A stretch of 64,000 nt of DNA, from assembly GCA_021732995.1 (NCBI GenBank), contig JAKFWA010000055.1, positions 62,001 to 126,000 of the forward strand, in the 5' to 3' direction. Below, piece after piece: positions 49,613-53,524 of the stretch. How positions within the stretch are numbered: position 1 is the stretch's first letter; the number at the start of each line of letters is the position of its first letter. The position numbers and the translations under genes were made by a program. The notes under the pieces are model-generated. The model was given only the letters and a program-made list of their open reading frames with translations. It ran no database searches and was not told the origin of the DNA. The DNA comes from Planctomycetaceae bacterium. Its GTDB lineage: Bacteria > Planctomycetota > Planctomycetia > Planctomycetales > Planctomycetaceae.

Positions 49613-50629
49613 CTACTGCGCCACCTGAGATCGAGCGACGGTCCGCTGTCCTTCGTCCTGCAGAACTTCCTGTACGTGACGGATGGCATCCGGGATCACA
49701 TCGATCACGGCGCGAGTTGATCCCGACAGCGTCAGCGCGAGCACAAAGACTCCCACCAGCGATCGAATCGGCATACCGATCACCAACTGGTTGAACTGCG
49801 GCACACTGTGGCCGAGATAGCCCATGCTGAGCGTAATGAGTGACATCGTGGCCAGCAGCGGGCTGCAGACCTGGACACTCAACACCAGTGACTTGTGGAT
49901 AAGTTCGGTCAGCAGCACATGAATGTTGCTGAAGTCAGCGATGTGGCCGACGGGGATCGTGTCGAAGGTCTCCATCAACGCGCCCAGCAGCATCAGATGA
50001 CCGCCCAGCGGCTGCATCAGCAGAATGGCCACACCGCCCAGCATGAAGAACGTCTGGCTGGTGAGCGCCGCGCCACCGAGGTCGGGGTTCAGTACGGACG
50101 CGGCGTCGATGCCAATCTGCTGATCGATGATCTGTCCCGCCAACTGCAGTCCGGACAGGACGATCATCACGCCCAGCCCCATGATGAAGCCGAGGCCGAA
50201 TTCCGACGCCGCGGATTGCAGCAGATCAGAATTGGAATGCTGCATGACAGGAGCTGCCGCCAGTTGCTGAAGGGGGACACCTCGTTCGGGGTCGACGTTC
50301 AAATCGGCGGCCACATTCAGCACGCGTTGCTGCATGTGCTGCGGAGCCTCGGCTGCGGTAAGTCGCCCATCCTGATTGCGGTCGTAGCTGGCCAGCATCT
50401 GTTGAAAGCTGTCCTGCATCTGCGGCGCCAGCAGGCAGCTTAACGCGAGGATCAGGCAGACCCTCGCCCGCGCCGGGACGACCGACTGACTGAAGATCGG
50501 GCCCGTCGTCATCAGGCCGCTCAACCGAAACAGGATCATCAAGAAGACGTATGCATGGTGCAGCGCGGCATCCAGCAGCCACCGCGTGCCCACGTTCATC
50601 AATCCGTTGAAGTTGAAGAAGTCATCCAT
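49613..50629 (-). CDS. fliR: flagellar biosynthetic protein FliR with inserted EF-hand-like region
   Basis: A 338-residue inner-membrane component of the flagellar type III export gate (FliP5-Q4-R1). The FliR helices are clear (VFLMILFRLSGLMTTGPIF, then FGLGFIMGLGVMIVLSG and AQLAGQIIDQQIG). Between the first and later helices, at residues 71-140, is an insertion absent from typical FliR. It contains DRNQDGRLTAAE at 83-94, which fits the 12-position EF-hand loop, and a weaker second loop near 109-120. Length is about 70 residues above normal. The last gene of the fli cluster. Confidence 0.9.
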   Translation of the reverse strand: MDDFFNFNGLMNVGTRWLLDAALHHAYVFLMILFRLSGLMTTGPIFSQSVVPARARVCLILALSCLLAPQMQDSFQQMLASYDRNQDGRLTAAEAPQHMQQRVLNVAADLNVDPERGVPLQQLAAAPVMQHSNSDLLQSAASEFGLGFIMGLGVMIVLSGLQLAGQIIDQQIGIDAASVLNPDLGGAALTSQTFFMLGGVAILLMQPLGGHLMLLGALMETFDTIPVGHIADFSNIHVLLTELIHKSLVLSVQVCSPLLATMSLITLSMGYLGHSVPQFNQLVIGMPIRSLVGVFVLALTLSGSTRAVIDVIPDAIRHVQEVLQDEGQRTVARSQVAQ

Positions 50630-50735: not shown

Positions 50736-51005
50736 CTAGTTCAGTGAATTCGGAATGCCGGTGAAAAGATCAATCGAGTACTGCGACATCTGAGCCAGCG
50801 CCCAAGGCATGATGAACAGGATCGTGAGCAGCATGATGACCAGCTTGGGCACGATGCTGACGGTCTGATCCTGAATCTGAGTCACCGCCTGCGCGACGCT
50901 GACGCCGAGGCCGACCACGACGGCGATTGCCAGCACCGGTGCGCTGACCATCAATGTCAGCATCACCGCCTGGCGAGTGAGTTCGGTAGCAAAGTCGGGT
51001 GTCAT
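50736..51005 (-). CDS. fliQ: flagellar biosynthetic protein FliQ
   Basis: An 89-residue protein with two membrane helices (about 15-38 and 53-75) and the family stretch AVTQIQDQTVSIVPK in the loop. It forms part of the export gate with FliP and FliR. The length is the family norm. ATG 51005 lies 109 bp after the fliP stop. Confidence 0.93.
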   Translation of the reverse strand: MTPDFATELTRQAVMLTLMVSAPVLAIAVVVGLGVSVAQAVTQIQDQTVSIVPKLVIMLLTILFIMPWALAQMSQYSIDLFTGIPNSLN

Positions 51006-51114: not shown

Positions 51115-52053
51115 TTATCCGGACCCGGTGACGCTGTGCAGCAGCATCTGGACGGTCAGGGTCCAGCCATCGATTAGAACGAACAGCATCAGTTTGAATG
51201 GCAAGGACACGAGCGACGGCGGCAGCATCATCATACCCATCGCAGTCAGCAGCATGGACACAACCATGTCGATGACCAGGAACGGCAGGAAGATCTGAAA
51301 GCCGATCACGAACGCAGATTTAAGTTCGCTCAACATGTACGCGGTGACGATGATCGACGGCTCGATCTCGTCGAAGGTTTCAGGTTCACGCCATTCGCCA
51401 GCAGCCAATGAACCCGGAGCCGGGCGGCGGTAGTCGACCAGCATGAAGACCACATCTTCGCCGCCCGCGTTGTGAATCTGCTCGCTCATGAAACGCTGCA
51501 TCGGCTGGAACGCGTTGAGGAAGACACGCTTCAACGGTTCTTCGCCAGCAACCAGATTGGGGATCGGCTGATTGTTGACGTAAGGCTCAATGCCCTCGCG
51601 ATAGCACTCCTGCCAGATCGGCGTCATGACGAACATGGTGAGAAACAACGCCAGCGCTGAAACCACTTGATTCGGCGGCAGGTTCTGAGTGCCCAGCGCC
51701 TGACGCAATAACCCGAAGACGATGATGAACCGGATGAAGCACGTCGTCATCATCAGGATGGACGGCACCAGGCTCAGCAGCGTGAGCAGGATCATGATCT
51801 TCACGCTCTGGCTGAGCCCAGAGGGTGCAAGCATCTGATCGAACTTCAAACCGTCATCGTTATTGCGCGCCGCAATCGGCTGATTAGCGGCGTTGGCGGG
51901 AGCATTGAGCTGCGGTTCAACAGCCTGCCGCGCAGGTTTTTGAATGGCCTGCGCGTGCGCCGTTGAGGTACCTGATGTCAGCAATCCGGCGATGACGGCA
52001 ATAAAGATCATCACCCAGCGTCGGACAGTCCGCTCTGTCGGCTTACGATCCAT
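51115..52053 (-). CDS. fliP: flagellar biosynthetic protein FliP
   Basis: A 312-residue export-gate subunit. A cleavable signal peptide (VMIFIAVIAGLLTSGTSTAHA, residues about 14-34) and a Gln/Ala-rich linker precede the FliP core. The first core helix is followed by LVPSILMMTTCFIRFIIVF, and the family hallmark PNQVVSALALFLTMFVMTP comes next; LSELKSAFVIGFQIFLPF is in the C-terminal half. It is longer than usual (about 245) because of the leader and a periplasmic insert near residues 180-230. ATG 52053 has GGAGGG upstream and overlaps the fliO 3' end by 11 bp. Confidence 0.95.
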   Translation of the reverse strand: MDRKPTERTVRRWVMIFIAVIAGLLTSGTSTAHAQAIQKPARQAVEPQLNAPANAANQPIAARNNDDGLKFDQMLAPSGLSQSVKIMILLTLLSLVPSILMMTTCFIRFIIVFGLLRQALGTQNLPPNQVVSALALFLTMFVMTPIWQECYREGIEPYVNNQPIPNLVAGEEPLKRVFLNAFQPMQRFMSEQIHNAGGEDVVFMLVDYRRPAPGSLAAGEWREPETFDEIEPSIIVTAYMLSELKSAFVIGFQIFLPFLVIDMVVSMLLTAMGMMMLPPSLVSLPFKLMLFVLIDGWTLTVQMLLHSVTGSG

Positions 52054-52798
52054 GTCGACCCTCCGAGGGTGATCGGACCGAGATGCTCGACAGCCGATTT
52101 CCGTTCTTCTCGGCTTCCTGAAAGAGCTGTTCTCCAAGTCGCTCGCCGAAGGACCGCTGATCGGTCTCGGGCTTGCGACCAGTGAGCCGATTCAACCAGT
52201 CGCCGACACCCCCGTCATGAGGTTCTCTCGCGCGCGACACGTTGACGAGCGTCGCGACTTCGATGGGGTCTGAGATCTCACCGAGTGGGGAGAGTCCATT
52301 CGAGGACGCTCCCAGGAGCAGCACCTTCCCGCCGACCTTGACCAGATAGACCGAGTTGCGGGGATCAACAGTTCGGCGTCCGAGAATCTCAACCGCATCG
52401 CGAGGCAGGCCCGGCACTGCAAACGGGTTCTTGCGCATGACGAGCTTGGCAACTCCCAACAGCACCACCACGACGCAGGCCAATGAGCCCAACAGCGTTC
52501 CGAGGCCAGCACCGGAACCGCGAGGGGTGTTCGTGTTCTGACCACCTGCTTCGGATGAACGCGATGACGAATTGCGTACCAAGGGAATCGGCGCGGCTGA
52601 CTGCCGAACTGGTGACAACGAGTTGTCGTGTATCGGCGGCCATTCGGGTGTCTCTTCGTTGCCCGCTTCTGCGGGTTCGACGACCAGCGACTTCGCGCCG
52701 AACTGAGCGCGAGGACGCGTATCGCCAGCTCGCGCTTGCGACGCGCAAGAGGCAATCCCCAGACAACACAGAGTGACCAGCAGTCTCAAGCGATCCAT
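52043..52798 (-). CDS. fliO: flagellar protein FliO
   Basis: A 251-residue chaperone-like factor for the FliP-Q-R gate. It has a signal peptide (to about residue 24), a long Pro/Ser-rich periplasmic stretch, one membrane helix (about 102-120) and a cytoplasmic domain with the FliO-typical VEILGRRTVDPRNSVYLVKV and GKVLLLGAS. The N-terminal periplasmic section is unusual in size. Its ATG follows GAGGAA. It overlaps fliP by 11 bp. Confidence 0.88.
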   Translation of the reverse strand: MDRLRLLVTLCCLGIASCASQARAGDTRPRAQFGAKSLVVEPAEAGNEETPEWPPIHDNSLSPVRQSAAPIPLVRNSSSRSSEAGGQNTNTPRGSGAGLGTLLGSLACVVVVLLGVAKLVMRKNPFAVPGLPRDAVEILGRRTVDPRNSVYLVKVGGKVLLLGASSNGLSPLGEISDPIEVATLVNVSRAREPHDGGVGDWLNRLTGRKPETDQRSFGERLGEQLFQEAEKNGNRLSSISVRSPSEGRHGS

Positions 52799-52810: not shown

Positions 52811-53524
52811 TCAAAAGTCTGGTGTTACGATTTCGGCCACGCGAACGCAGAAGTTGTCGTTGAGCACCAGCACCTCGCCCCGAGCGAGCAGGCGGCCATT
52901 GACCACGATGTCCACCGGGTCACCCGCCATCTTGTCGAGCGGAACGACCGCGCCTTCCTTGAGCGACAGCACTTCGTCGATCAGCAGTTCGGCGCGGCCG
53001 AGTTCAATATGCAGGTCTAGCTCAACGTCGTCGAGAGTACCCAGTTGGTAGGCACGGCCGGCTCCCGAGCCTCCATCAGAGAACTCAGCCAGTTCAAACG
53101 GTTTCGCTCCAGCCGCGTCGTGCGAGACATTGGAACGCCCGTGACGATCTTCCCGCAGCATGGCTTCGATGCCCGACTCCACGCGATCCAGCATCTGCTC
53201 GGTGCGACGGCTCGGTCGCTTGTCCGCGGTGGGTTTTGGCTTGGCAGCCGGGGGAGCTGCAGCAGGCGCTCCAGACCCATTCAGCAGCGCTTCCAGATCA
53301 TTCGCGTCCAGCAGATTGTCGTTGGCCTTCGGCGCCGGGGAGGCACTGCTGTTGAGCAGCGCTTCCAGTTCGTTCGTGTTAATCAGATTGTTGCCGCCAG
53401 CCGCTGGCGGCGGCGACGGGGGTTCCGGTTTGGGCGCGGCACCCGGTCCGCGCGGCAAGCCAGCCTGAGCCTGCGCCAGCAGCTTCTGGATGTCACTACT
53501 ATTCATCAAGTCGTCGTCAGCCAC
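52811..53524 (-). CDS. fliN: flagellar switch protein FliN with extended N-terminus
   Basis: A 237-residue protein. The C-terminal SpoA domain (about 155-235; LDDVELDLHIELGRAELLID, then VLSLKEGAVVPLDKMAG and GEVLVLNDNFCVRVAEIV) is FliN and forms the C-ring. The N-terminal 110 residues carry three repeats of a short LL motif: SDIQKLLAQ, NELEALLNS and NDLEALLNG, separated by Pro/Ala-rich linkers. GTG start with AGGAG upstream. First gene of the visible fliNOPQR cluster; no fliM is adjacent. Confidence 0.92.
   Translation of the reverse strand: MADDDLMNSSDIQKLLAQAQAGLPRGPGAAPKPEPPSPPPAAGGNNLINTNELEALLNSSASPAPKANDNLLDANDLEALLNGSGAPAAAPPAAKPKPTADKRPSRRTEQMLDRVESGIEAMLREDRHGRSNVSHDAAGAKPFELAEFSDGGSGAGRAYQLGTLDDVELDLHIELGRAELLIDEVLSLKEGAVVPLDKMAGDPVDIVVNGRLLARGEVLVLNDNFCVRVAEIVTPDF

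Follow-up and report, generated by a model that had tools for sequence, protein, structure and literature searches.

The FliR protein encoded in the window (the whole stretch of 64,000 nucleotides that we analysed) appears to carry an EF-hand unit within its R-loop, between helices 2 and 3 of this flagellar export gate subunit. Comparison of related sequences supports well both the presence of the insert in an export gate subunit and its identity as an EF-hand and candidate calcium site. Neither FliR nor the EF-hand is new in itself, and what is new is an EF-hand inside FliR; no paper joining the two was found in the open-licence literature, including that on planctomycetes, type III export and calcium gates.

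The fliR locus and the insert in the R-loop

The fliR gene of the window starts with an ATG at position 50629 and stops at 49613 (Table 1). Translation showed that the coordinates given in an earlier note on this DNA were right and supplied the strand, minus, which that note had omitted. The protein matched the Pfam family Bac_export_1 with 137.4 bits, above the cut-off of 27.8. According to Pfam, fliN, fliO, fliP, fliQ and fliR are consecutive in the window and all lie on the minus strand, a flagellar context that rules out the window FliR being a non-flagellar type III copy. Of the 53 loci with an EF-hand FliR, 51 likewise have FliQ upstream and on the same strand, at a distance of at most 600 bases in 50. 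The source genome also contains a second pair of FliP-like and FliR-like genes, which perhaps belongs to a non-flagellar type III system. The FliR-like protein of this pair (L001, C117:3089-3787) has 260 aa and lacks the insert, and a similar second FliR-like match was present on C148 of G001, a genome of the same genus as the source.

To place the insert, the window FliR and its relatives were compared with solved FliR chains, which the profile of our FliR alignment (A1, described below) retrieved with a best E-value of 1.1e-30. The profile aligned through its position 80, corresponding to Salmonella FliR residue 64, and resumed at position 137, corresponding to residue 68, so that profile positions 81–136 fall between these two residues. 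Kinoshita et al. 2025 (PMC12403130) give the 14 residues 55–68 of Salmonella FliR the name R-loop; the insert, lying between residues 64 and 68, is therefore inside it. The same paper describes this loop as extending into the beta-cap pore at the periplasmic gate and proposes that it blocks premature secretion. By analogy with the Salmonella structure, the insert would face the periplasm in the source organism. The same alignment columns hold 80 residues in the window FliR versus 28–29 in FliRs of other families. Thus, the earlier note was correct in placing an insertion inside FliR, but its length is about 50 residues by profile alignment and segment lengths, and not the approximately 70 that had been claimed. 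The window FliR resembles Salmonella FliR and SctT (PF01311; PDB 6r69 and 9k29) in its Bac_export_1 core and in the fliP-fliQ-fliR gene order, but the R-loop of 14 residues in Salmonella is here longer by about 50 residues, which include an EF-hand loop.

By the kinship of FliP and FliR, the FliR insert would lie approximately at the place of the periplasmic segment of FliP, a protein that also has a p-loop. The window FliP, for its part, gave only the FliP domain in Pfam at E ≤ 0.01. About 116 residues precede this domain in the FliP frame, including, by eye, a signal-peptide-like stretch, and the mature FliP N-terminus would face the beta-cap.

Table 1. Coordinates of the fliR region in the window and of the features within FliR.
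Feature	Position	Strand	Basis
fliR, flagellar export gate subunit, 338 aa	49613..50629	-	Pfam Bac_export_1 7.5e-40, translation
Insert, FliR residues ~72–133, replacing the Salmonella FliR R-loop (55–68)	50231..50416	-	profile alignment, length comparison, PMC12403130
Putative EF-hand loop 1, FliR residues 83–94 (DRNQDGRLTAAE)	50348..50383	-	ligand conservation, loop pattern
Putative vestigial second EF-hand, residues ~109–123	50261..50305	-	column counts; like one-good-one-poor pairs in the genome
fliQ	50736..51005	-	Pfam Bac_export_3 1.6e-24
fliP, start codon uncertain	51115..52137	-	Pfam FliP 5.7e-66
fliO	52043..52798	-	Pfam FliO 3.2e-9
fliN-type switch protein	52811..53524	-	Pfam FliMN_C 1.6e-22

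Conservation of the loop and likeness to EF-hand proteins

The earlier note had read the first loop of the insert as matching an EF-hand at positions 1, 3, 5, 6, 8, 9 and 12, and the checked translation agrees with this reading. Conservation of the ligand positions in relatives was tested on alignment A1, which consists of 34 rows picked from the 51 insert-bearing rows of a 70-row alignment to limit near copies. Positions 1, 3, 5 and 12 were kept in all 34 rows: position 1 is Asp, position 3 is Asn or Asp (26 and 8 rows, respectively), position 5 is Asp or Asn (28 and 6), and position 12 is Glu. The outcome that the earlier note had named as refuting, ligand positions not kept in close relatives, thus did not occur. 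Position 8 is L, I or V throughout, position 6 is Gly in just 20 rows and another residue in 14, and positions 2, 4, 7, 9, 10 and 11 are variable. D83 and E94, the first and last residues of the loop, are 2 of the 18 columns that are invariant across the whole of FliR. Their codons do change (GAC in 18 and GAT in 16 rows for D83; GAA in 26 and GAG in 8 for E94), and since these changes are silent and leave the residues unaltered, selection on the protein holds them. The surroundings of the loop are conserved as well, with a hydrophobic residue (F/L/I/V) at loop position -4 in 33/34 rows, mostly a hydrophobic one at -1 (at least 30/34), a hydrophobic residue five past the loop Glu (residue 99) in 34/34, and Pro at +2 after the loop in 32/34, the same number in which the loop is followed by E-[VIL]-P. 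The loop pattern was present in 58 of the 59 loci checked, the sole miss being the short FliR of G084. When the window FliR was shuffled 200,000 times, the pattern D.[DN].[DN]..[LIVM]...E arose 147 times, and a stricter form with G6 and a restricted position 9 arose 4 times.

The second half of the unit is weaker. It has a hydrophobic residue at 118 (34/34), an acidic residue at 122 (25/34) and F/Y/W/L at 123 (34/34), but no conserved ligand pattern was detected in it across the 34 rows. Hence, of the degenerate second loop described in the earlier note a half-pattern stands, without conserved ligands.

We then built a profile from the insert only (A3; 34 rows, 59 positions) and compared it with the source genome. 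The best match after FliR was an EF-hand stretch on C53 (4.0e-9, profile positions 3–52), and EF-hand stretches were also matched on C2 (4.8e-8, positions 2–55) and C93 (3.3e-7, positions 1–40). In all 3, as in FliR, a good loop is followed by E-[VIL]-P, and the units on C53 and C93 likewise continue with a weak second half. Unlike FliR, these 3 EF-hand proteins show no sign of a flagellar role. Judged by eye, the protein on C53 (L128/L199) has several EF-hands behind a signal-like start, the one on C93 (L129/L200) is a redoxin-like protein with a single EF-hand unit at its end, and a further one on C1 (L118) is protein-kinase-like and likewise has its EF-hands at the end. Such units occur repeatedly in the genome, with 13 PF13499 places; the one on C2 is L123. 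An exported EF-hand protein of this lineage is the most likely source of the unit in FliR.

A search of the PDB with the insert profile gave 462 sequences at E ≤ 1, of which 2m7n was the best with a whole-chain E-value of 1.2e-11. The 60 matches listed of these 462, with E-values from 1.2e-11 to approximately 2e-6, are calmodulins and other calcium-binding proteins by molecule name. These E-values refer to whole chains and sum several EF-hands per chain; single stretches are weak, with a best i-Evalue among the matches listed of 0.044 (calerythrin). Most listed stretches cover the first loop only, and 8rx8 (CML18) spans profile positions 6–55. The PDB match therefore rests largely on the conserved loop. 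FliR shares with calmodulin, calerythrin and similar proteins the pattern D-x-N/D-x-D/N-x-x-hydrophobic-x3-E and the hydrophobic residues at -4 and, mostly, -1. Compared with calmodulin-type EF-hands, FliR differs in its vestigial second loop, in the incomplete conservation of Gly6, in the Pro at +2, in the weak single-stretch matches and in that its unit is embedded in an export gate protein. In Pfam, the window FliR scored 12.5 bits against EF-hand_1, below the cut-off of 25.4, and 2 short peptides of the insert gave sub-threshold EF-hand matches only; among the A1 members, 11 of 34 matched EF-hand_6 and 9 of 34 matched EF-hand_5 at E ≤ 0.1.

Structure prediction gave a weak helix-loop-helix. 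The AlphaFold2 model of residues 64–140, made from the single sequence, has helices at 69–80, 96–110 and 120–123 with a mean pLDDT of 60.7, and the likewise single-sequence model of full-length FliR has similar helices at a pLDDT of 41.2. The helix at 69–80, the loop and the helix at 96–110 are weakly in favour of the predicted helix-loop-helix, and Foldseek found no match for the 64–140 model at E ≤ 0.001. Because the models are weak, the identity of the unit as an EF-hand rests on its sequence. A dockerin-type loop was considered but not preferred given the Glu at position 12 in all rows, and a chance motif was rejected on the ligand conservation together with the insert-profile searches.

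Distribution, gain and loss of the unit

An EF-hand FliR is encoded in at least 58 of the 170 genomes of the window's family, in 28 of its 58 genera; this count leaves out fragmentary FliRs such as that of G097. With the window FliR as a query, matches at E ≤ 0.001 were obtained in 122 of the 170 genomes, which includes short FliRs and the second, non-flagellar-type relatives, and the A1 profile had a match in 147 of the 170 when weak ones were counted. The order-level search covered the same 170 genomes. The FliR of G092 (L196) has the EF-hand loop. We also searched a class sample of 397 genomes and a phylum sample of 392, both of which contain part of the family. Among the matches listed, those running through the insert were all within the window's family, and those from outside it began at profile position 123 or later. 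All 20 FliRs from other families of the class that we aligned (taken from the better class-search matches, in a 110-row alignment) have 28–29 residues at this place and lack the loop pattern. The A1 profile had no match in viral contigs. The sole locus from the named-genome search, a Methanosarcina protein, matched query residues 87–135 only and was rejected as it is not a FliR.

To follow the unit within the family, a quick IQ-TREE tree with SH-aLRT values only was built from 92 rows (the 110 rows minus 4 fragments and near copies), comprising 39 FliRs with the EF-hand, 33 from the same family without it and 20 from other families, after removal of the insert columns. On this tree, in which 33 of the 89 inner branches are open, the EF-hand trait changes at least 5 times, and 4 of these changes are forced by well supported branches. 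FliRs without the EF-hand are nested among those with it: L047 by the window's group, L061 by L058 and L060 by L020. The tree does not decide between one gain followed by losses and more than one gain. In genus g47, L058 has the EF-hand versus L061, which is without most of the insert and retains GFDRL where the loop of its relatives starts; this is suggestive of loss of the L061 insert by deletion, but no more than suggestive. Some same-family FliRs without the EF-hand have other additions in the R-loop stretch, which then has 50–85 residues versus 28–29; in L067, L071, L076, L176 and L064 it has 67–85. The DGRLHRNE stretch of L067 may be a decayed EF-hand loop. As relatives do without the insert, it cannot be a general requirement of the gate, and the unrelated additions indicate that the R-loop tolerates unrelated sequence.

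We also looked for FliE, which was found in 10 of the 13 family genomes tested, namely in 7/7 with an EF-hand FliR and in 3/6 without one (G084, G101 and G148, all with an EF-less FliR, had no FliE match). With 13 genomes, 6 of them EF-less, this association was set aside as too small to use.

Possible role of the unit at the export gate

We favour, with modest confidence, the reading that the EF-hand unit, with its one working and one vestigial loop, is a calcium-stabilised lid or collar at the periplasmic side of the gate. The R-loop is situated where the FliP5-FliQ4-FliR1 channel opens to the periplasm, and the unit would thus probably lie on the outer side of the gate. There it would bind periplasmic calcium and stay filled and folded, and the ion would fold and stiffen the small lid or collar that the unit forms at this opening. 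Such a lid may help the gate to stay closed before FliE, the rod protein, has docked, and may also help to position FliE docking. As there is one FliR per gate, each flagellum would have a single EF-hand. The sequence, the ligand conservation, the profile similarity to EF-hands, the alignment to the R-loop and the flagellar gene context are observed, and from them we infer calcium binding, an EF-hand fold, a periplasmic location in this organism and an effect on the gate; calcium probably helps to shape or control the gate because the ligand residues are fixed across many species. Compared with the calcium sensing coupled to secretion that the earlier note proposed, a constitutive structural site is an equally good or better fit, given that the loop seems to be on the periplasmic side and that several relatives are without the insert.

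The same sequence evidence can be read as a calcium sensor of weak affinity. In this reading the R-loop lid would open or shut as calcium in the periplasm changes, and would thereby control rod initiation or export. It is the R-loop that is proposed to restrain early secretion (PMC12403130). Because the loop stands beside a vestigial partner, its affinity could be weak enough to respond in the physiological range. Two points count against sensing: calcium is usually abundant in the periplasm, where a normal EF-hand would stay filled, and sensor-type EF-hands are usually cooperative pairs, whereas the partner here showed no conserved ligands in A1. We regard it as somewhat unlikely. In a bolder form, which we think unlikely, the R-loop EF-hand would set both gate plugging and the FliE rod start, and outside calcium would license the flagellum of the swarmer cell.

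Compared with the stabilised lid, it is rather doubtful that the unit is a docking or spacer module that contacts FliF, FliE or another periplasmic protein and uses calcium for its fold only, with no gating. The related units of the genome do look generic and occur in otherwise unrelated proteins, and its patchy occurrence among relatives points to an accessory specific to the lineage; however, the insert is in the R-loop beside the gate and not at a neutral end. Finally, a chance or non-EF acidic loop that merely resembles an EF-hand is highly improbable: the sub-threshold Pfam score of the single window sequence, the missing Gly6 in 14 rows and the want of a good structural model speak for it, but the complete conservation of positions 1, 3, 5, 8 and 12 and the retrieval of EF-hand stretches of the own genome and EF-hand proteins of the PDB by the insert profile speak against it.

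FliPQR is a core export machine that is conserved widely, and the way in which its periplasmic gate is kept closed and is opened is still under study (PMC12403130). A natural EF-hand in the proposed gate-plugging loop would offer a testable handle on this question, through calcium, the 2 invariant ligands and the insert-free relatives. Gene deletion by double homologous recombination has been reported for Planctopirus limnophila (PMC11958385). If gating is involved, an ion would be directly linked to type III export, and a calcium-operated lid, if true, would be an ion sensor built directly into a type III secretion gate. Even if the unit is structural only, it would show that the R-loop has room for a folded domain, a constraint on models of how the rod is initiated.
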